DNA of 64,000 bases from Cytophagales bacterium. GTDB lineage: Bacteria > Bacteroidota > Bacteroidia > Cytophagales > UBA9547. The position numbers were made by a program, and so were the translations under genes. Below, piece by piece: positions 1 through 10,471 of this stretch; positions within the stretch are counted from its first letter, which is position 1, and each line of letters opens with the position of its first letter. The notes beneath the pieces were generated by a model, which saw nothing but the letters and a program-made list of their open reading frames with translations, was not told the origin of the DNA and searched no databases. The stretch lies in the NCBI GenBank assembly GCA_013297755.1, contig JAAFIH010000002.1, positions 124,001 through 188,000 on the forward strand, read 5' to 3'.

Positions 1-923
1 TTAAAAGTAGAAGTAGAATCAATGGTTACTTTTTTTGAATTTCTAAGTGCATATCCTAATAGTACAATCAAAATGGGAGTTCCTAAACCCAAAATATGAA
101 TAGGAACATCTGTTTTATCTCCATTCAAAACTCCTAATACTAAAGCCATGGCAGACAAATAGGATTCTGGCAAAGGCTCAATAAAAGTTTCCACTTGCCC
201 AGCTATTTTCATGGATGTTGTAAAATTATTGTTTGCCATAGGTCCACCAAAACTAATGGCAATGCCTTGTTTATCAATGGCTTTGCTCATACTAGCTGCT
301 TGAAATGCAGTATCATAGTCACTAGCATGATAAACTATATATTTGTTGGTATTTTGTATTTCTTGAGCATGCCCAAACTGCCCACTAGCTTGTAAAGAAA
401 ACAACTGTTGAGTAGCTTTTTGATAAGTAATCAACTCTTCTGCAACAGGAGAAAAAATACTATCAAGCATACCTGCCATACTCAAAACTGGAATGGTAAA
501 ATCTTCCATGCCTATAAAAATATCAGGTTTAGATTTAAGCTGTCTAGCTGTTACTTTGCTGATAATTAAATTATTTTGCTGGTTGATGCACTCTTGAACC
601 ACAGCTTGTACCAGTTGCTGTCTTTGTGCTAATGTTTGGTCTGATACTTTTTTATTTTTTGCAAATTCAAGTTTGGCTTGTTTGAGTATTTCATCTCCTT
701 GAATGGCAAATTTAGAAGCTATTTTTCCCATTCTGGTAAAATTTCCATTATCACTCACCACCAAACAGCCATTATCTTTTAGAGCCAGTGTTTTTTTGAT
801 TTCACTGGCTGTGGCATAGTGCTCAGAAATCAAAAAAGCATCACACAGCTCTGGATGTGGGTTTTGCAAAGTAGCCAATGGGTCTTTGCTATTGAGTACA
901 AATTGGTAGGTGAGAACACTCAT
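1..923 (-). CDS. TIM-barrel-like protein, possibly tRNA-guanine transglycosylase (TGT/DpdA) superfamily; C-terminus outside window
   Basis: An open frame of 307 codons begins at ATG 923-921 and runs off the left edge without a stop. Seen: GMEDFTIP at residues 138-145, SFGG near 224, HILGLGTP at 276-283 and VTIDSTS at 299-305. The order of these blocks, with a glycine-rich turn followed by a strand carrying an aspartate, recalls the late strands of TGT-type TIM barrels, where a G-x-G-P turn precedes the active-site Asp strand. That assignment is inference from pattern only. No zinc-binding Cys cluster is visible, but the C-terminus is missing. The gene starts 7 nt after the stop of the preceding membrane-protein gene, so the two are probably co-transcribed. 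The first 117 bp inside the gene are copied exactly at 3824-3940. It may be an unrelated barrel enzyme. Confidence 0.55.
   Translation of the reverse strand, partial: MSVLTYQFVLNSKDPLATLQNPHPELCDAFLISEHYATASEIKKTLALKDNGCLVVSDNGNFTRMGKIASKFAIQGDEILKQAKLEFAKNKKVSDQTLAQRQQLVQAVVQECINQQNNLIISKVTARQLKSKPDIFIGMEDFTIPVLSMAGMLDSIFSPVAEELITYQKATQQLFSLQASGQFGHAQEIQNTNKYIVYHASDYDTAFQAASMSKAIDKQGIAISFGGPMANNNFTTSMKIAGQVETFIEPLPESYLSAMALVLGVLNGDKTDVPIHILGLGTPILIVLLGYALRNSKKVTIDSTSTF
794..910 (-). repeat. 117-bp direct repeat, copy A (inside the TIM-barrel-like gene)
   Basis: This stretch is identical, base for base, to 3824-3940 in the same orientation. It covers codons 5-43 of the TIM-barrel-like gene. 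Flanks differ at both ends, so the duplication boundary is sharp. Confidence 0.95.
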
Positions 924-930
924 AATTCTA

Positions 931-1605
931 TTATTTAGCTATTAAAATCACTAAAAATGCAATCATTAGCACAATACTCACTACTACATGAGTTGTAAAT
1001 AATTTTTGGTAATCATTTAGGTGATGCATATTTACCCCACAGGTAGAATTTAATTGATGAAGAAATTTTTTAAATTCTTCTCCATCAAAAGTAGCAGAAT
1101 CTTGTATGGTAAGATAAATTTCAAAATTTTTGGTGGCATCTCCTTTCACTATAGCACTATTATTTTCTCTTAAATATTCATTGACTTTACTTTCAAGTTC
1201 AGCACTTGTAAATCCATAAAAACCAGTAACTTCTAATTTCCAAGTATAGTCTTTAGCAATTACCTTTCTGGGCTCTGGTGGGTCTGGGAATACTTTTTCA
1301 AATTCACCAGAGTTATTCTTAATTACAAGCAATAATATGGCGAAAAACAAAATAAAAATACCTAATACAAAAAAGAAATAATCGTCATCTGTAGAATACT
1401 TTAATAGTAATGTTGTAACAATTATAGCCAAACATAAAATAAAATACATAGCTATTGTAATTATATCTTCAATATAAGAATATCTTGAAAATTTCAATTT
1501 ATTATCTTTGATGTAACTAATACTTCTATTAGGTTGTATAAAGGACAATCCTAATGTAGAAAAAAGTAATACTAAAGAAAATATTTTTTCTAATTCTAAA
1601 AGCAT
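931..1605 (-). CDS. Small membrane protein of unknown family, module 1 (224 aa)
   Basis: I do not recognise the family. The N-terminal half has three hydrophobic segments (about 5-25, 47-68 and 75-96), followed by a Pro-rich hinge with the pattern FPDPPEPRK (about 106-114). A soluble alpha/beta domain follows (about 118-195, starting at YTWKLEVTGFYGF), and a C-terminal hydrophobic segment (about 205-224) ends the protein. The closest relative is the 223-aa product at 7398-8069. Their DNA is nearly identical over roughly 1095-1253 versus 7559-7718, which suggests recent duplication or gene conversion of the soluble domain. The gene lies 67 nt after the 657-aa gene and 7 nt before the TIM-barrel-like gene. 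The soluble domain could form a cytoplasmic lid between membrane segments; this is inference. Confidence 0.85.
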   Translation of the reverse strand: MLLELEKIFSLVLLFSTLGLSFIQPNRSISYIKDNKLKFSRYSYIEDIITIAMYFILCLAIIVTTLLLKYSTDDDYFFFVLGIFILFFAILLLVIKNNSGEFEKVFPDPPEPRKVIAKDYTWKLEVTGFYGFTSAELESKVNEYLRENNSAIVKGDATKNFEIYLTIQDSATFDGEEFKKFLHQLNSTCGVNMHHLNDYQKLFTTHVVVSIVLMIAFLVILIAK

Positions 1606-1672
1606 ATTTGTATTGTATTCTTGATTTATTATAAATTTTAAAGATGATTTTAATTAGTAGCATAACAATGTG

Positions 1673-3646
1673 CTATGCTATTACTCTAGGTTCTGGTACT
1701 ATGGGTTCTGGTTTAGGTTGTGGTGGAATTTGATTGGGTTTATTACTTTTTTTAAAATCACAGTTTTTGAAATTATCTATGTGATTACCTAATTCTTCTT
1801 TCATGGCTTCAAGCATTTCTTCCCAACTTTCCTGATATGATTGTTGATTTTTTGATTTATTGTCATCAATTCTTTTTTGTATAAAATCCCTTCTATTTTG
1901 TAACTGTCTTAATCTATTTTTAATTTGATTAATTTTTAATTTGAAAAGAAAGGTTACAGCAGTCATAGCAACTATAGCAAGTATTTTGTTTGGAATTCTA
2001 GCTAGACTTTGACATAATACATCAAGAAAAAGTTGTGTAGCATCAATTTCTTTCTCAACCTCTAGAATTTTTTTATTTAATTCTTCTAATTCATTTAGAT
2101 TTTCTGGAATTGAATTTGGTGGTATTGGTGGTAAATTATCATCTGATGGAGTATCTTCAACAATAATTTCAGTTCTAGCATTTGTATTGCTTTTTTGAAT
2201 ATTTGAAGAAGTAGAAGTATTTAGCGCATAAACATCAAATAGTATAGGATTCATAGCCCCATATCTACCCAATTCTAAAGTATAGTTTAGACTCAAACCA
2301 TTGGCTACTAGTTGGAAATATTGGTTAGTTTCTAACTGAATCCAACTCCACAAATTTGTTTTAGAGTTTGCATTTTTTTGTTCTCTAGCAATAGATAATG
2401 CAGCTTTACCATCATATTCTTTGTTTTTTAAATCCCAAGTGCCTTCTATTTCTACATATCCATTTTTTACCAAACCAGTAGAGTCAATTTTTATATAAGG
2501 TAATACTGCAAAAATCTCTTTTTCACTATCATCAGTAATTTTGAGATGAGTTATAGCTTTTCTGTATTTGTGAATAATGTCTAAATCAGACACTTTTCCA
2601 GAGACTACTATTTTTTTGTTATTATATCTTTCAGAATTAGTTAAGAGTTCTGTAACTTGTACAATTGGGGAAGAAAAATCAAATGAAGTATTACTTAAAG
2701 GAATTTCAGACAATGCTTTTTGATATTTTTTGTATAAAGTGGTTTTTTGACTAAAATTTGAAATTATTTTAATCTTTTCTATAAAAACTTTGCAGGTGAT
2801 AGCATTTCTTAAGTTTTTGCTTAATTGTAGCAAATCTTTACTGGAACTTTTGATTGTAATTTTTGATTTCTTAACTGAAATTATTTCTAAATAACATCTT
2901 TTAACATACAAATCAAGTAAATTGCTTTTCTCTTGTAAATATTTAAAATCTAGCTTTGAAGAACTTTTTGTATTTGATTTTAAGTTTTGAAGAAGAGTAA
3001 AATTATAAAGATTAAAGTTTTCAGAATTTAGATTCAATTTTTTATCAATACTCTCAATATCTGTTATTTCATTTGGTGAATATTGAAAATTGAATTCAGC
3101 TAAAATGTTTGCATAATAGTATCTTGAAAATGAACCTAAATAATAATCTAATGAAGAATATAAGAAATCAAAATAGTATTTTTTGTATTCATTAATATTA
3201 TTTCTAAGCTCTTTTTTGGATAGGTTGATTTGAGATTCAGAAATTATTTTCTCTAAATCAGTATTTGTTGAATTTAAAATTTCACTTTTAATCTTCTGAT
3301 AATCAATATCTGGAGCAATTTCATTTAAATACTTTGTTATTTCATTATCAGAATTTGGGATATTTTTTTTTAACCAAATTGCATCAATCTTTTCCTCAGG
3401 AGGGACAACATAATATTTGTTTAAGTATTCATTATACCCTAATAAAGTAGAATCAATTGACTTTGTTAACTCAATTAATGTATCCTCATATTTTTTTAAA
3501 GTAATAAAAACTTTAGCACATTCTTCTTTTATACCAGTCCAATCTTCTGAAATGATTTTATGATGGATTTTTGTTGTATAATACTCATAAGATAATGATA
3601 TATTATAAAATTTTACATCTTCAATAAGACCTTTGGTAGTATTCAT
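1673..3646 (-). CDS. Large OB-fold-like membrane-associated protein of unknown function, module 1 (657 aa)
   Basis: I do not recognise the family by name. The first ~310 residues are mostly helical and Lys/Asn/Ser-rich. Residues about 325-405 look like an OB-fold nucleic-acid-binding type domain, with strands such as KKIVVSGKV, HLKITDD and GYVEIEGTW. A conserved block follows (NLWSWIQLE, then YGAMNPILFDVYAL). The C-terminal third has an acidic Pro-rich linker, a Leu/Glu coiled coil, one hydrophobic segment (about 563-580), another coiled coil and a proline-rich tail ending EPRVIA. The module 2 homologue (5202-7294) shares the domain order, and the module 3 remnant (8767-8935) matches the last ~55 residues. 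The upstream DNA holds a 76-bp repeat also found upstream of module 3. This is the only undamaged large gene of the array. Confidence 0.85.
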   Translation of the reverse strand: MNTTKGLIEDVKFYNISLSYEYYTTKIHHKIISEDWTGIKEECAKVFITLKKYEDTLIELTKSIDSTLLGYNEYLNKYYVVPPEEKIDAIWLKKNIPNSDNEITKYLNEIAPDIDYQKIKSEILNSTNTDLEKIISESQINLSKKELRNNINEYKKYYFDFLYSSLDYYLGSFSRYYYANILAEFNFQYSPNEITDIESIDKKLNLNSENFNLYNFTLLQNLKSNTKSSSKLDFKYLQEKSNLLDLYVKRCYLEIISVKKSKITIKSSSKDLLQLSKNLRNAITCKVFIEKIKIISNFSQKTTLYKKYQKALSEIPLSNTSFDFSSPIVQVTELLTNSERYNNKKIVVSGKVSDLDIIHKYRKAITHLKITDDSEKEIFAVLPYIKIDSTGLVKNGYVEIEGTWDLKNKEYDGKAALSIAREQKNANSKTNLWSWIQLETNQYFQLVANGLSLNYTLELGRYGAMNPILFDVYALNTSTSSNIQKSNTNARTEIIVEDTPSDDNLPPIPPNSIPENLNELEELNKKILEVEKEIDATQLFLDVLCQSLARIPNKILAIVAMTAVTFLFKLKINQIKNRLRQLQNRRDFIQKRIDDNKSKNQQSYQESWEEMLEAMKEELGNHIDNFKNCDFKKSNKPNQIPPQPKPEPIVPEPRVIA

Positions 3647-3660
3647 ATTTTATTCATTTA

Positions 3661-3736
3661 TTTAAAACCAATCTATAATATTTTAATTTATTTTTATTAT
3701 TACACAATTCAATTTAATAATTATTTAATATTCATA
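3661..3736 (-). repeat. 76-bp upstream-region repeat, copy A (probable promoter of module 1)
   Basis: These 76 bp match 8988-9063 at 73 positions. Copy A lies directly upstream of the 657-aa gene (start at 3646). Copy B lies upstream of the module 3 remnant. The sequence is extremely AT-rich with T-tracts. Conservation of a non-coding block in front of the same gene type suggests a promoter or leader; no clear TAnnTTTG box was located in it. Confidence 0.75.
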
Positions 3737-3812
3737 ATTACATTCTCTAAAATGCTAAATTTTTTATTTACACTCAATCAAAGTACATAGTATTCTAAAC
3801 TTTTTTGAGAAG

Positions 3813-3953
3813 TCAAATTTTTCTTTTGATTTCACTGGCTGTGGCATAGTGCTCAGAAATCAAAAAAGCATCACACAGCTCTGGATGTGGGTTTTGCAAA
3901 GTAGCCAATGGGTCTTTGCTATTGAGTACAAATTGGTAGGATGTAAAATTCAT
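3813..3953 (-). pseudogene. Truncated 46-codon copy of the TIM-barrel-like gene
   Basis: Reading from ATG 3953-3951, the frame encodes 46 residues. Residues 6-42 are identical to residues 6-42 of the TIM-barrel-like product at 1-923, while the first few residues (MNFTS versus MSVLT) and the last few (KRKI then stop) differ. The copied DNA ends abruptly at 3824, and the rest of the gene is absent. It sits 41 nt downstream of the 190-aa gene, in the same relative place that the full gene has in module 1. A functional micro-peptide is unlikely but cannot be excluded. Confidence 0.8.
3824..3940 (-). repeat. 117-bp direct repeat, copy B
   Basis: Exact copy of 794-910, in the same orientation, forming most of the truncated 46-codon gene copy. 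The two copies enclose module 1 (about 3 kb), so recombination between them would delete or amplify that module. Confidence 0.95.
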
Positions 3954-3994
3954 ATTTTATTATTAACAATTTATTACTATTTGTACATTCCATT

Positions 3995-4567
3995 TCAATT
4001 ACTAGACAATATTTCTTTTAAAATAATTTTTGAATCACCTTTAGTAGTATCACTAGAAAGTCTTGTTTTTTCTTCTTTTATCATAGTCCTAAATTTTTGA
4101 AAATTTGTTTGTGTTGTATCATATTGTTTATACTTATCTAATAGTATAGTCAAAGAGTCAAGTGTTTTTAGTTTTTTTGAAGTACTGGTATCTTTATACA
4201 TTTTAAAATATCTTTTCAAAATATCAAAATAATTACGTTTTATATTTACAAATACTACATTATTAAAATTCTTTCTTAAAATACTATCAATCTTTGCATC
4301 ATTTCTGTATAACTTGTTTATGTTTTTTTTGACAATGGTGTCAAGCATATTTTTCTCCCATTCTATGGTGTTTTCTATTTTATAAAAATTAGTGTTCTTG
4401 ATTTGAACAGAGCAATAAATATCTGCATATTTTTTAATGTTGAGTATATAGAAAGATTCACATTTATCGTGAATTTTTTTTAGAAAAAAATCTTTTTTTA
4501 AAACAAAGAGTAGATTTATACTTATTATAACTACACATAGAATGGATAAAACAAAATTAAGCTTCAT
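3995..4567 (-). CDS. Hypothetical protein with N-terminal membrane anchor (190 aa)
   Basis: Unrecognised. The first ~24 residues form one hydrophobic segment (signal anchor or uncleaved signal; no lipobox cysteine). The remaining ~165 residues are Lys/Asn/Ile-rich and predicted largely helical, which suggests an extracytoplasmic helical domain. The gene starts 6 nt after the stop of the 211-aa membrane protein gene and is the last intact gene of module 2. No equivalent exists in modules 1 or 3, so it is either module-specific cargo or a diverged part of a large gene. Confidence 0.75.
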   Translation of the reverse strand: MKLNFVLSILCVVIISINLLFVLKKDFFLKKIHDKCESFYILNIKKYADIYCSVQIKNTNFYKIENTIEWEKNMLDTIVKKNINKLYRNDAKIDSILRKNFNNVVFVNIKRNYFDILKRYFKMYKDTSTSKKLKTLDSLTILLDKYKQYDTTQTNFQKFRTMIKEEKTRLSSDTTKGDSKIILKEILSSN

Positions 4568-4573
4568 ATCTTT

Positions 4574-5209
4574 TCAATTATGGTTAATAGAAAAATAAAT
4601 TGAATCTTTAAACAATTCAAAGATAGATTCCAACAAATCAAAATTTAGTATAAGTAGCACTGTGAAAATGAAATAATTGATTAGAAATATAATTTTAAAA
4701 ATCTTAGTAAGCTTATATGAATTTTCAAATTTGTATGTTGAAACTTCTGAACTAACAGTAGAAGCAAAAATATGTTTATTTTCATTTTTGTTGAAAAATA
4801 AAATCAACATGTTTTTTTCAAAATAAATATTTTTTCTCGTTTTAAATTTAAAATTTGCCTCTTTTAGTGTGGATTTCAGATTTTGAATATCAATCTCCTT
4901 TATTCCTTCTATTGTAATATTATTTGACATAAACTTATTTACTATAAAACAAAAAGCAGAAAGGATTAATAATAGTATGACTATCCAAATTTTATCAAAT
5001 GGGAATTTATTAATAATATAACTAATGGTGTATAGAACTAATGATACTATACAAAAGACAAAATAAAATGCAGTTACTAGATAATTATGAATTAAAATTT
5101 TATTTTGACATAGTACTTTAATCTCAAATACAGATTTAGAAACCCACAAATACAAAGAAATAAAAAATACAAGAATGAGAATGATTTGGTATATATCCAT
5201 ATTATGCAA
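4574..5209 (-). CDS. Small membrane protein, diverged member of the 225-aa family, module 2 (211 aa)
   Basis: The product has the same layout as the 223-226-aa proteins of the array: three hydrophobic segments in the first ~95 residues (about 5-22, 42-65 and 74-92), a soluble region of ~75 residues and a C-terminal hydrophobic segment (about 172-190). It lacks the YTWKLEVTGFYGF block and the Pro-rich hinge, so homology is inferred from architecture and gene position rather than clear identity. Its start overlaps the 3' end of the large module 2 gene by 8 nt, indicating translational coupling. It is followed 6 nt later by the 190-aa gene. Confidence 0.75.
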   Translation of the reverse strand: MHNMDIYQIILILVFFISLYLWVSKSVFEIKVLCQNKILIHNYLVTAFYFVFCIVSLVLYTISYIINKFPFDKIWIVILLLILSAFCFIVNKFMSNNITIEGIKEIDIQNLKSTLKEANFKFKTRKNIYFEKNMLILFFNKNENKHIFASTVSSEVSTYKFENSYKLTKIFKIIFLINYFIFTVLLILNFDLLESIFELFKDSIYFSINHN

Positions 5210-7127
5210 TTAAATCTACTATTGGAATTAATGGGGGCATTGGAGTTGTTTCTGGTCTTTCTTCACAAAGGTTCAATCCCTTGCAGTCCATATTCAAGTC
5301 TTCGTCTGCCAATTCTAAATCAAATAGAGAATTATAGTAATCACTTAATTTTAATTTATTCTCATACAATTCCATCTTTAATTCATTTATTTTATTTTCA
5401 AGTTCATTAATTCTTTTATGTATTTCTATAAAGGGTACATTAAATTGATATAAAAAATATTTGATTAAATCATGAATAGCTTTAGCAATGAGAATTACAG
5501 CTGAAATTATCAATACTGTTAAACCAACAGCACTTCCAAAAATTATTGCTGCTATAAAAGAAATAAATACAAAAAGGGCTATATACAGCAAATAATTAAA
5601 ATCTCCTCTCTCTTTAGTTAATTTATCATACTCTTGAATTTTTTCTTTTAATATATTAAGCTCATATTCAGCCTTCTTAATATTTTCTTCTATTTCTTGA
5701 TTTTTAACATCATCTGGAGGTAAATCATCAAAATTAGGAGTATCATCTGCTGCAACTCTCATATTTGAATTTGCACTTCTTGCTGTTTTATTTGGAACTG
5801 CACTTCTAAAATTTTGTGTGGCACTATATTTTGTTCCATACATGTTTTCAACTTTAAAAGGCATGGCAAACACATCATATAGTATTTGATTACAAGCCCC
5901 ATTGGCACCAGACTCTAGTGTCCATTCAATAGCAGTATTATGAGAAGAAGGAGTATAAATATCATTGATATTCAACAGCATCCAGCTCCAAAAATTATCT
6001 TTTGAGGTGGCTGATAATTTTGATTTACCTATAGAAAGAGATTGTTTATTCTTATTTTCAGTATTAATATTTTTCCAAATCCCAGAAACTTTTATATAAC
6101 TTCCTTTTACAGCTCCACATGAATCAATTTTGACATGTGGTAAAACTGCTTCTATGGTTTTGCCTTTGTTTGATTTAATTTTTACAATAGAAATTGCTTT
6201 TGTTCTGACATGTCTTATCTCAATATTTTCTATAAAACCATTAATGGTGATTAATTTACCCTCATAATAATTATAATCATCAATCAAATCATCCATTGAT
6301 GTTTTTTGACCAGATAAAATATCATAATCAATTTTTGATAAATTTTTGATGGCTTTAAAATAGGGTCTAGCTAGAGTATGAGATTTACCCAATGGCAAAA
6401 TGGCTTCTAGTTTTTTGTAAAACAGTAGTGCAGAAATCACATTTCTAAATGCATTGGATAAAACAAGATGTCTATTGAAGTATTTTTCATTGGTTGGAAA
6501 ATTATTTTTTAAGTATGCCAATTTTGAAACATCTTCTATAATTGAATCTAAGACTTTATCAAAATCCTTTTCATACCCATTAGGAAGGGTAATGACTTCT
6601 CTACTACTTTTATTGATTAAATCATTATTTTTAGTTATAATTTTTGTTATCAGAGCATTGTAATCTTTTGTAAAGTCCAACCCCATCAATGCTTGAGATT
6701 CTGATGTAATCTTCAAAAAATTTACATTAAATATTGAACTTGCATTGGCTAGTAAAGACCTAGAATACCATTGGTAAATCAATGTTGAAGTCTTTAAAAA
6801 ATATTTCTGATAATTAGGAAGCTTATCTTTAAAAATTAAAATGTATTTATCTTTACTGATAGCACTAAAATACTCAAAAAGTTGTTTAATATTTTCTTTG
6901 TTTTCAGAAGATACTTTTTCTTCTTCTATTAAGTCTATTGATTTAAGAACAGTTTTAAGTTCATTACTGTTTTGAAGTGAAGCTGGTAAATTTGGAAGTA
7001 TCTTTTTATTAAATGTATTATAATAAGTGTCTATATTTTTAAGTGAAGAAGAATAGTTTATTAATGATGGAATAATACTATCAATAGAGTTCAAGTGTTC
7101 CCATTTAATTGAGCCATAGTATCCCAC
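5202..7127 (-). CDS. Large OB-fold-like membrane protein, module 2, main part after a frameshift (641 aa from a GTG)
   Basis: Homologue of the 657-aa module 1 protein. An OB-like domain lies at about 285-370 (KLITINGFI, then GSYIKVSGIW), the conserved block reads NFWSWMLLN then GACNQILYDVFAM, and a coiled coil, a long double hydrophobic segment (about 520-565), a second coiled coil and a tail ending VDLIA follow. The GTG at 7127 is only the first start available in this frame. The expected N-terminus, homologous to the first ~60 residues of module 1, is encoded in another frame at 7129-7294. The gene is therefore frameshifted between about 7095 and 7127, or the assembly has an indel there. 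The 3' end overlaps the 211-aa gene by 8 nt. Confidence 0.7.
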   Translation of the reverse strand: MGYYGSIKWEHLNSIDSIIPSLINYSSSLKNIDTYYNTFNKKILPNLPASLQNSNELKTVLKSIDLIEEEKVSSENKENIKQLFEYFSAISKDKYILIFKDKLPNYQKYFLKTSTLIYQWYSRSLLANASSIFNVNFLKITSESQALMGLDFTKDYNALITKIITKNNDLINKSSREVITLPNGYEKDFDKVLDSIIEDVSKLAYLKNNFPTNEKYFNRHLVLSNAFRNVISALLFYKKLEAILPLGKSHTLARPYFKAIKNLSKIDYDILSGQKTSMDDLIDDYNYYEGKLITINGFIENIEIRHVRTKAISIVKIKSNKGKTIEAVLPHVKIDSCGAVKGSYIKVSGIWKNINTENKNKQSLSIGKSKLSATSKDNFWSWMLLNINDIYTPSSHNTAIEWTLESGANGACNQILYDVFAMPFKVENMYGTKYSATQNFRSAVPNKTARSANSNMRVAADDTPNFDDLPPDDVKNQEIEENIKKAEYELNILKEKIQEYDKLTKERGDFNYLLYIALFVFISFIAAIIFGSAVGLTVLIISAVILIAKAIHDLIKYFLYQFNVPFIEIHKRINELENKINELKMELYENKLKLSDYYNSLFDLELADEDLNMDCKGLNLCEERPETTPMPPLIPIVDLIA

Positions 7128-7294
7128 TTTTTAGTTACAATAAAATTATGATACCTCAAACTAAAATAATCTAAAGACCTTTCATTTACCTTTTGATCTA
7201 AAATTAAAATATTCTTATCTAAATCACCTTGATAATTTACAAATTCATTAATGAAATTTTCAGGTTTTTCAAGAATATTTTTTATGGATGACAT
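7091..7294 (-). CDS. N-terminal fragment of the module 2 large protein (67 aa, before the frameshift)
   Basis: ATG at 7294-7292. The segment SLDYFSLRYHNFIVTKKWDTMA aligns in spacing with the module 1 N-terminus (pattern L-x-Y-x-Y, H, I, then W), and then this frame stops while the homologous sequence continues in the frame of 5202-7127. The two overlap by 37 nt. It is part of a disrupted gene rather than an independent small protein, unless a programmed frameshift joins the two. Confidence 0.7.
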   Translation of the reverse strand: MSSIKNILEKPENFINEFVNYQGDLDKNILILDQKVNERSLDYFSLRYHNFIVTKKWDTMAQLNGNT

Positions 7295-7397
7295 ATTGAT
7301 TACAAATTATTTGGGCAAATCTATAATAATAATCTTTTCTTATTATTAAATAATTGTTACTATTTGACATTCAATAAAATAAATTAATGTTTTATTA

Positions 7398-8069
7398 TTA
7401 TTTAGATATTAATATCACTAAAAATGCAAACATTAATACCACACTTACTATTATATGGGTTGTAAATAATTTTTGATAATCATTTAGGTGATGTATATTT
7501 ACCCCACAGGTAGCATTCAATTCATTAAGAAATATTTTAAAATCTTCTCCATCAAAAGTATAAGAATCTTGTATGGTAAGATAAATTTCAAAATTTTTGG
7601 TAGCATCTCCTTTCACTATAGCACTATTATTTTCTCTTAAATATTCATTCACTTTTCTTTCAAGTTCAGCACTTGTAAATCCATAAAAACCAGTAACTTC
7701 TAATTTCCAAGTATATTCTCTTGTGATGGGTTTTCTTGGTTCTGGTAGGTTTGGGAATGTCTTTTCGTTTTCTCCATAGAATTTTGCAAGAATAAAAAAT
7801 GCCAAAAAAGCAGTTGCTATAAAAAATATGCTAAATATAAACATTGAATCTAATGCTGGTGTATTAAAAGCTGCTAAAACTAAAAAGAATAAACATGTAT
7901 AAAATAATAAAGCTGTAATTATTGCAGTACTTCCAAAAAAATATTTTTTGAACTTTAATTTATTTTCTTTTACTTCATTTATCTCCTTTCTTATCCCCCA
8001 AAACATAAATAAAGGATTAATTATCATTATAAAAATAAAAGACATTAAAAGTTCTAAGGGTATGTTCAT
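7398..8069 (-). CDS. Small membrane protein of unknown family, module 3 (223 aa)
   Basis: Close paralogue of the 224-aa product at 931-1605. The second half (TREYTWKLEVTGFYGF through the C-terminal membrane segment) is almost identical, while the N-terminal membrane segments have diverged. Layout: three hydrophobic segments (about 5-25, 45-68 and 75-95), hinge FPNLPEPRK, soluble domain and a C-terminal anchor. It starts 13 nt after the 226-aa gene in the same strand, so module 3 has two tandem copies of this gene type. Its downstream gap of 103 nt precedes module 2. Confidence 0.85.
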   Translation of the reverse strand: MNIPLELLMSFIFIMIINPLFMFWGIRKEINEVKENKLKFKKYFFGSTAIITALLFYTCLFFLVLAAFNTPALDSMFIFSIFFIATAFLAFFILAKFYGENEKTFPNLPEPRKPITREYTWKLEVTGFYGFTSAELERKVNEYLRENNSAIVKGDATKNFEIYLTIQDSYTFDGEDFKIFLNELNATCGVNIHHLNDYQKLFTTHIIVSVVLMFAFLVILISK

Positions 8070-8082
8070 TTGTATAAAAGGA

Positions 8083-8763
8083 TTAAATTCTAAGCATGAT
8101 ATAAAGTATAATATTAATCATTATATACATTAAAATAATACTAATTACTATATAAGAATATATTTTAAAAAATTTAGAATAGGTTTCTAAATGAAACATA
8201 TTTATATCATCTTTTGATTTTAAATCTTGTAAAAATAATTTTAGTTTTGCTTCCTCAAATGTTGGGGTTTGCTTTAGTAAATACACCTCAAAATGTGATT
8301 TTGCTTCTCCTTTTACTATCACAATATTTTTTTTATCTAAATATACATTTATCTTATCTTCAATTTCTTCATTAGAAAAATTATAAAACCCACAAACTCT
8401 CAACTTCCATGAATATTCTTGTAAATATTTTTTGGGAGTTGGAGGTTTTGGGTATGCATACTCAAACATACTATCTGGTTCAGAATTTTCTTTGATAATA
8501 TATATTGAAATAAAAAATATAAATAATAAGCAAAAACTAATAATGTAATAATCTGTAGGAGATAAAGGGAATAACATTGTTATTACTCCAATAACGATGT
8601 TTAATGTCAAAACTATTAACATCATTGTGATATCATTGATATACATGTATTTTGTAAATTTAAGAATTTTATTCTCAATATTTCTCAATGTAGATTTGAT
8701 ATAAAAATAAAAAGCAATATCTATTACTATAACTGCTAACAAAGAAATTATTTTAGTAATCAT
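8083..8763 (-). CDS. Small membrane protein of unknown family, module 3 first copy (226 aa)
   Basis: Diverged paralogue of the 223- and 224-aa proteins: three N-terminal hydrophobic segments, hinge YPKPPTPKK (about 107-115), soluble domain starting YSWKLRVCGFYNF and a C-terminal hydrophobic segment. The ATG begins 3 nt after the stop of the remnant large gene (8767-8935), which preserves the tight coupling seen between large and small genes in module 2. With the large gene lost, this gene may be expressed from the duplicated upstream region at 8988-9063. Confidence 0.85.
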   Translation of the reverse strand: MITKIISLLAVIVIDIAFYFYIKSTLRNIENKILKFTKYMYINDITMMLIVLTLNIVIGVITMLFPLSPTDYYIISFCLLFIFFISIYIIKENSEPDSMFEYAYPKPPTPKKYLQEYSWKLRVCGFYNFSNEEIEDKINVYLDKKNIVIVKGEAKSHFEVYLLKQTPTFEEAKLKLFLQDLKSKDDINMFHLETYSKFFKIYSYIVISIILMYIMINIILYIMLRI

Positions 8764-8766
8764 ATA

Positions 8767-8935
8767 TTATGCTATTACTTTAGGTTCTGGCATTTTAGGT
8801 TCTGGTATAGGTTTAGGCTGAGTTTGATTGCTTTTAGTATTATTTTGAAAATCACAGTTTTTAAAATAATCCATATTATTACCTAATTCTTCTTTCATGG
8901 CTTAAATCATTTCTTCCCAACTTTCTTGTTATTAT
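8767..8935 (-). pseudogene. C-terminal remnant of a third large OB-fold-like protein
   Basis: The minus strand encodes about 55 residues matching the tail of the 657-aa protein: ESWEEMI, stop, AMKEELGNNMDYFKNCDF, a proline-rich stretch, and EPKVIA. The stop TAA at 8904-8902 replaces a Glu codon of the homologue. The remaining ~600 codons of the gene are absent: upstream DNA goes almost directly into the 76-bp upstream repeat. This indicates an internal deletion that joined the leader to the gene end. Confidence 0.8.
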
Positions 8936-8987
8936 TTTACTATTAAATTTATTTTTTTCTTACTTTTTAAAAAGTGTTTTTTGTATA

Positions 8988-9063
8988 TTTAAAACAAATC
9001 TACATTATTTTAATTTATTTTTATTATTACACAATTCAATTTAATAATTATTTAATATTCATA
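8988..9063 (-). repeat. 76-bp upstream-region repeat, copy B
   Basis: Matches 3661-3736 with three mismatches. It lies upstream of the module 3 remnant, where a promoter for that module would be expected. Confidence 0.75.

Positions 9064-10395: not shown

Positions 10396-10471
<76 letters not shown>

Follow-up and report, generated by a model that had tools for sequence, protein, structure and literature searches.

The first 9,063 nucleotides (nt) of a 64,000-nt stretch of the genome of a Cytophagales bacterium (Bacteroidota; contig JAAFIH010000002.1, positions 124,001 to 188,000), here called the window, are occupied by an array of three modules of one gene set, which arose by duplication and of which two have decayed. 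Every gene of the array lies on the minus strand. A module consists, in order, of a 76-nt leader, the gene of a large protein with an OB-like domain (the OB protein), one or more genes of small membrane proteins with three spans plus one (3+1-span), and the gene of a TIM-barrel-like protein (the barrel), which probably belongs to the superfamily of tRNA-guanine transglycosylases (TGTs). Only module 1 is near-complete. In module 2 the OB gene is frameshifted and the barrel is reduced to a 47-codon remnant; module 3 retains the leader, a C-terminal remnant of the OB gene and membrane protein genes. An array of three modules with partial decay of two had been proposed in a first-pass annotation made from the sequence alone, and the repeats, remnants and frame changes found here bear it out. 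The same annotation had placed a barrel gene at the end of modules 1 and 2, which stands for module 1 and shrinks to the remnant for module 2.

DNA repeats of 300 nt (92%), 191 nt (81%), 137 nt (94%) and 91 nt (91%) within the array support the duplication. The 76-nt leader occurs twice (see the table below), against no occurrence in 100 shuffles. The OB remnant of module 3 comprises 56 residues with three in-frame stops and is 64% identical to the 657-amino-acid (aa) OB protein of module 1. In module 2 the frame changes between the 641-aa open part and an upstream open reading frame (ORF) that is probably the N-terminus of the gene; its likeness to the N-terminus of the 657-aa protein was seen by eye and is insignificant in BLAST (E 0.06). 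Promoter-like sites number 76 against 75.1 expected, and terminator-like sites 4 against 2.3. A search of the 70 contigs of the source genome (E <= 0.001) with three queries, the barrel and the 657- and 224-aa proteins but not the 190- and 211-aa ones, gave no further match elsewhere.

The membrane proteins of 224, 223 and 226 aa are homologous, the latter two being 59% and 37% identical to the first. In each, the N-terminal half carries hydrophobic spans and is followed by a soluble domain and a single C-terminal span, and the 211-aa protein of module 2 has a similar span pattern, in agreement with the three-plus-one layout given in the first-pass annotation. The sequence similarity of the 211-aa protein to the others is marginal (E 0.007 for its 208-aa form, in the transmembrane region only). 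The 224- and 223-aa pair is, by its alignment, a mosaic: the half with the soluble domain and the last span is 85% identical, the half with the first three spans 32%. In blocks of 25 columns the identity is 22-32% in the first four, 59% in the fifth, 96 and 100% in the next two and 72-83% in the last three. A lantibiotic-immunity permease model matches the 224-aa protein below its threshold (18.4 bits, cut-off 145; E 0.001), which is probably due to the membrane spans. The 190-aa single-span protein has a weak similarity to its 211-aa neighbour (E 8e-6 without composition correction).

The 657- and 641-aa OB proteins are homologous and about 30% identical. Each has a helical part with an OB-like domain and a coiled-coil/hydrophobic C-terminus. 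Strands are predicted at residues 328-401 with low confidence. The same region gives sub-threshold matches to tRNA_anti-like (E 0.24, the 641-aa protein) and to DUF1980_C (E 0.038, a relative in locus L013, described below), each in one of the four members.

Relatives of the barrel were sought with short exact patterns in the genome_contigs collection, in which 84,980 species are represented by a single genome each. Two loci were found: L012, in a Flavobacteriales metagenome-assembled genome (MAG; Bacteroidota), with a barrel 45% identical to that of the window, and L013, in a Rubritalea MAG (Verrucomicrobiota), with a barrel 42-43% identical. A scan of the same collection with the OB alignment gave no relative. 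Directly upstream of the barrel, on the same strand, L012 encodes a 483-aa OB-like protein and a 108-aa short protein, and L013 a 412-aa OB-like protein and a 171-aa short protein; the gaps between the genes of these operons are 2 to 62 nt. The OB regions are homologous to those of the window (E values in the table). Since the OB protein precedes the barrel in both of the two barrel relatives, the two genes form a conserved pair that spans two phyla and is very rare, and the order OB protein, then barrel, is common to all three genomes. The co-occurrence in other genomes that the first-pass annotation had asked about was thus seen for the OB protein with the barrel and not for the membrane proteins. 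The short 108-aa protein has a hydrophobic middle and a marginal similarity to the C-terminus of the 641-aa OB protein (E 0.014 to 0.084); the 171-aa protein resembles a charged coiled coil and lacks a hydrophobic span. The short partner plausibly corresponds to the C-terminus of the large OB protein in the window, where it is apparently fused. A further protein with a tRNA_anti-like (OB) match (E 4.9e-8) is encoded a few genes from the L012 operon (L012:5387-5776, minus strand).

Table 1. Features of the three-module array (window coordinates)
Feature	Position	Strand	Basis
Module 1 barrel gene (TGT/DpdA-like), 5' 307 codons	3..923	-	ORF list; two relatives 42-45% identical
Module 1 3+1-span membrane protein, 224 aa	931..1605	-	ORF and homology to 223-aa copy
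Module 1 helical, OB-like and coiled-coil/hydrophobic protein, 657 aa	1673..3646	-	OB region homologous to L012 OB protein, E 5e-22
76-nt leader repeat, upstream of module 1 OB gene	3661..3736	-	DNA repeat
Module 2 barrel N-terminus remnant, 47 codons, 83%, in-frame TGA	3810..3950	-	Homology; DNA repeat
Module 2 single-span protein, 190 aa, no family match	3995..4567	-	ORF
Module 2 divergent 3+1-span membrane protein, 208-211 aa	4574..5200	-	ORF, span pattern
Module 2 OB protein, 641-aa open part	5202..7127	-	E 2e-26 to L012 OB protein, 2e-6 to L013 OB protein
Probable frameshifted N-terminus of module 2 OB gene, 67 codons	7091..7294	-	Position and by-eye similarity; BLAST insignificant
3+1-span membrane protein, 223 aa	7398..8069	-	ORF, homology
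Module 3 3+1-span membrane protein, 226 aa	8083..8763	-	ORF, homology
Module 3 OB C-terminus remnant, stop-interrupted	8770..8937	-	Homology to 657-aa protein
Module 3 76-nt leader repeat	8988..9063	-	DNA repeat

The barrel gene was initially taken as a product of 307 codons, which is only its part inside the window. The real gene extends beyond the window start and comprises 397 codons followed by an overlapping ORF of 75 codons; in the two relatives both parts form one continuous protein of 475-478 aa. At the split (L004:3506-4923, minus strand; L004:14396 is window position 10396) the first stop overlaps the second start in the sequence ATGA, at a methionine that is also present in the fused relatives. 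A C-terminal tail of 75-80 aa follows the barrel region.

The three barrels share the invariant stretches SDNGNFTRM, E-D-x-T-I-P-V, H-x-x-D-Y, G-G-P-M, H-I-L-G-x-G-x-P-I-L-I and I-D-x-T-x-x-F-K-D-A, in which the positions D58-x-G-x-F62, E140-D141, G226-G227, H276, G279-x-G281-x-P283 and D302 are invariant. The canonical motif order of TGT, DSGGF ... GG ... MGVGTP ... FDCVMPTR with a catalytic Asp pair, was first spotted in the barrels by eye, and both the order and the Asp pair are present in all three. In a colinear alignment of 151 columns with the TGTs, PDYLIGLED lies on GADIIMAFDE, VLHSYDY on IVQGS, GGP near GGLSVGEP, HILGLGSP on YLMGVGTP and IDATSTFKDADDG on FDCVMPTRNARNG; the FDCVMPTRNARNG region is where the nucleophilic Asp of TGT lies. 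This alignment covers E140-D141, GGPM, HILGxGxP and D302 in order, but not SDNGNF. The placement of D58 comes from the alignment with phage DpdA, a relative of TGT: in the comparison of profiles SDNGNF falls on LDSGAF, and the DpdA hidden Markov model (HMM) places it likewise, at bit scores close to zero, for two barrels out of three. The zinc motif CxCxxC of canonical TGT occurs neither in the three barrels nor in the DpdA of phage 9g. The motif is not diagnostic here, because it is found in none of the 18 cellular TGTs (L019-L036) from the source genome and its relatives. The source genome has a separate Tgt gene of its own.

A profile of the three barrel sequences (window, L012 and L013) was compared by hhalign with a profile of these 18 TGTs. 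The score is 34.5 (P 0.0011) and exceeds that of all 100 column shuffles of the profile (mean 17.2, standard deviation 2.8, maximum 26.5) and that of the reversed profile (19.0). The 14 phage DpdAs, which are known relatives of TGT, reach only 21.4 against the same TGTs. When single proteins are ranked against the TGT profile, the barrels take ranks 2, 4, 10 and 11 of 135 proteins (ranks 10 and 11 are the window barrel, cut and whole), and the 9g DpdA takes rank 9. The alignments of the barrel profile with single TGTs extend over about 150 columns and are the longest among the 25 rows listed, except for the barrel itself. Among the 50 rows listed in a structural comparison of the barrel model by VIA-align, 16 are TGT (15) or DpdA (1) entries with Z 5.3-6.0; the DpdA entry, 7ui4, aligns at Z 6.0 over 222 residues with 14% identity. 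All Z values here are below 8, which according to the tool's note may reflect a common arrangement only. The profile score and the colinear motifs argue that the barrel probably belongs to the TGT superfamily, and they give moderate support to a TGT-superfamily fold and, with the same reserve, to the retention of the acidic residues that in TGT act on the base and on C1'.

Several results pull the other way. HH-suite assigns the match of the barrel with TGT a probability of just 20%. Against the profile of phage DpdAs the barrel scores 21.1 (P 0.081), which is exceeded by two of 100 shuffles (21.7 and 23.8). In hmmsearch the TGT model gives negative bit scores for the barrels, and the DpdA model gives 3.4 and 0.8 bits for two of them, the third not being listed. 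An unrelated protein tops the TGT-profile ranking with 26.7, above every barrel. Among 77 single proteins compared with the barrel profile, two TGTs rank only 7 and 8 (21.0 and 20.9), below unrelated proteins that reach 23.7, and four single DpdAs rank 13, 41, 49 and 69. None of the three barrels has a listed match to PF01702 up to an E value of 10, where the filters drop most matches above 0.1, and a sequence search of the PDB with the barrel profile gave only a chance match to a La protein (E 0.24). The structure model of the barrel is poor (pLDDT 50.8, pTM 0.45); the Foldseek check suggested by the first-pass annotation gave no match with it at E <= 0.001, and the top entry in VIA-align is a GH5 cellulase with Z 6.6. 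The TGT-like interpretation offered by that annotation has moderate support, the profile score surpassing every shuffle and the HH-suite probability being low.

The families of the array are extremely rare. The 657-aa protein was found in the source genome only, among 295 genomes of the class, as were the 224-aa protein among 390 genomes of the order, the barrel among 380 genomes of the order and the barrel profile among 296 genomes of the phylum; these genome sets overlap. Both congeners of the source organism in the order sets lack a match to the 224-aa protein and to the barrel. Searches of the groups around L012 and L013 gave no further relative (one of 299 and one of 288 genomes, the query genomes themselves). 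No match was found by tblastn in plasmids (657-aa protein, L012 and L013 barrels, L012 OB protein) or in phages (window and L013 barrels; the OB proteins were not run against phages), and viral contigs contained no relative by peptide patterns taken from the 224-aa protein, from the barrel and from the alignments of the OB proteins and the barrels. A housekeeping function is rejected because of this rarity, and a phage origin because no viral relative appeared at the sensitivities used.

The composition of the loci differs from that of their surroundings. The G+C content of the array is 0.247 against 0.29-0.31 around it. In L012 the OB gene has 0.30 and the barrel gene 0.28 against 0.35-0.37 in the flanks, and in L013 all three genes have 0.38-0.40 against 0.47-0.48. 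The occurrence in two phyla and the mostly low G+C point to horizontal transfer, by which the locus may have been spread or acquired. A comparison with an empty site was attempted through the neighbouring phosphorylase gene; in four relatives the other neighbours from the window are not beside it, one of the contigs being only 6 kb long. A tRNA-Met gene lies at window positions 10396-10471 on the minus strand (L004:14396-14471), about 1.3 kb from the upstream end of the array, and is a possible integration site; no tRNA gene was seen in L012, L013 or L003.

Scans with Pfam, NCBIfam, PHROGs and PADLOC gave sub-threshold matches or none for the proteins of the system. The families are thus as unrecognised as they had first appeared, and the profile searches assign no housekeeping function to them. 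In PADLOC neither the proteins of the window array nor, from the two related loci, the OB proteins and barrels (without the 108- and 171-aa proteins) have a match at E <= 1. For the system proteins scanned, PADLOC thus gives no backing to the role in defence that the resemblance noted at first would suggest. On one side of the array two neighbours in the window also lack a PADLOC match. The phosphorylase on the other side has weak ones (E 6.6e-4 and 1e-3) and is taken as housekeeping, since it is present in all five genomes tested. Many of the scanned neighbours are housekeeping genes; those of L012 were scanned with Pfam only. No protein of preQ0 synthesis or of the dpd type was found among nine flanking proteins scanned in L012 and ten in L013 (part of the flanking ORFs), nor among the scanned neighbours in the window. 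Near L013 only, a TIR gene follows the barrel at a distance of 1.1 kb and in the same orientation. The genes behind the operon (L013:10198-11740, plus strand) encode a 297-aa protein, which Pfam does not match, and the TIR protein, which is similar to ThsB and to SAVED-TIR effectors; both look membrane-anchored by eye. Adjoining the array in the opposite direction (L004:251-3354, plus strand) are genes of a 439-aa membrane protein, a TIGR02594 protein (182 aa, E 3.8e-26) and proteins of 113 and 228 aa, the 113-aa one with weak spanin matches (E 0.03-0.2); these genes may form a group for lysis or conflict. Also encoded near the array is a CHU_C type IX secretion signal domain.

The odds are about even that the array represents an accessory system, rare and spread by horizontal transfer, with a conserved core of three parts. 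These would be a helical protein that contains the OB-like domain, a short partner of coiled-coil/hydrophobic type, which in the source genome is apparently fused to the OB protein at its C-terminus, and a barrel enzyme of the TGT/DpdA superfamily. In the source genome this gene set has been duplicated to three modules, of which two decayed, and a fast-evolving 3+1-span membrane protein would have been added. The reaction of TGT and DpdA starts with the attack of an Asp on C1' of a guanosine, whose base departs and is replaced by a different one. By analogy, the OB protein might hold a nucleic acid in which the barrel might exchange or remove a base, and the hydrophobic partner and the 3+1-span proteins might link this complex with the membrane, whether as an anchor, an effector or an antidote. 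A conserved core that alternates with mosaic membrane genes, spare modules in decay and rarity fit conflict systems and suggest that the locus serves conflict, either phage defence or competition between bacteria; direct support is thin, a TIR gene being seen near L013 only. It is a tentative possibility that this is an undescribed immune or competition system, in which OB-guided base exchange or removal by a TGT-superfamily enzyme is joined to a membrane-active partner and tuned or neutralised by diversifying 3+1-span proteins. If so, base exchange would also operate in a type of system not seen before, together with an OB-fold partner and a component in the membrane, for which L012 and L013 offer a small, testable operon of three genes.

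Some features of the loci fit this system poorly. The barrel is in two ORFs in the source genome and may be decaying there, the 3+1-span genes are not seen in the L012 or L013 operons, no clear defence gene was seen beside the array in the window or beside the L012 operon, and the structure model of the OB protein is poor (pLDDT 49.8). The window barrel gene has a G+C of 0.348, above that of the array, and the L012 short gene has 0.407, above its flanks, so that the parts may differ in origin.

A somewhat doubtful alternative is an array of toxin/immunity cassettes. The OB protein would act as an effector, either secreted or active on membranes, whose hydrophobic C-terminus varies; the 3+1-span proteins would be cognate or orphan immunity proteins, and the barrel a downstream passenger or a loading factor. 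The type of the OB C-terminus does track the type of membrane protein, in that the 657-type and the remnant precede the 224-aa protein and the 226/223 family and the 641-type precedes the 211-aa protein, but the covariation rests on three modules, too few for statistics. The OB C-terminal remnant ahead of intact membrane genes and the mosaicism resemble arrays of displaced effectors and orphan immunity genes, and the sub-threshold permease match of the 224-aa protein, probably due to its spans, is a further point for this reading. Library scans matched no known toxin domain. An array of this type accounts for the covariation and the remnants, but neither for the barrel, which is kept in the L012 and L013 operons, nor for the lack of an immunity-like membrane gene seen there.

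The barrel might also be a non-defence accessory enzyme, such as a metabolic TIM-barrel with a membrane-bound OB scaffold, duplicated by chance. The weakness of the fold evidence, with the GH5 cellulase as top structural match, and the many housekeeping genes among the scanned neighbours speak for it; the extreme rarity across two phyla, the decay and recombination and the TGT motifs make it unlikely. A true DpdA-type system of DNA 7-deazaguanine modification, that is, a Dpd-like restriction-modification system, would be in keeping with the alignment of LLSxxY...SDNGNF of the barrel with LESWHY...LDSGAF of phage DpdA and with the presence of 7ui4 among the structural matches. It is quite unlikely, because no preQ0 or dpd gene lies among the scanned neighbours of L012, L013 or the window and no histidine is found at the DpdA position: by eye (HGFG on LGLG) the equivalent of H196 of the 9g DpdA is L278, the invariant H276 lying two residues earlier. 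The comparison with the DpdA profile gave no useful match either.

The proposed accessory system can be set beside several known ones. Among the papers listed on DpdA and TGT in connection with defence, OB-folds and operons, none describes the gene set, as judged from titles and the openings of abstracts, and an account elsewhere is possible. Effector-immunity arrays with orphan immunity genes (e.g. of Bacteroidales type VI secretion systems) are similar in the displaced C-terminal remnant, the repeated small membrane genes and the mosaicism; they differ in that a conserved enzyme-like barrel stands behind the cassette here and that no immunity-like gene is seen in the L012 and L013 operons.

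Enzymes of the TGT superfamily modify both tRNA (queuosine, archaeosine) and DNA (Dpd systems, phages), and DpdA performs base exchange (PMC6884629). The barrel differs from cellular TGT (PF01702) in having no listed PF01702 match, in its C-terminal tail, in its OB and coiled-coil operon partners and in occurring beside a separate Tgt in the genome; it resembles TGT in the colinear alignment of the motifs. From the DpdAs, the DNA preQ0 insertases of phages and bacteria, it is set apart by the missing histidine, the lack of preQ0/dpd genes among the scanned neighbours and a sequence similarity that is not significant, and it is like them in the N-terminal DxGxF context and the structural alignment with 7ui4. 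In the BRC systems (BREX-related capture, with GNAT and TGT modules) a TGT was recently reported as an add-on, with other partners (PMC12839542). PglZ, DUF6079, HerA/FtsK, DUF4007 and GNAT are absent from the scanned neighbours here; the likeness lies in the recruitment of a TGT homologue by a conflict system of several genes, as would be the case for the barrel in the proposed system.

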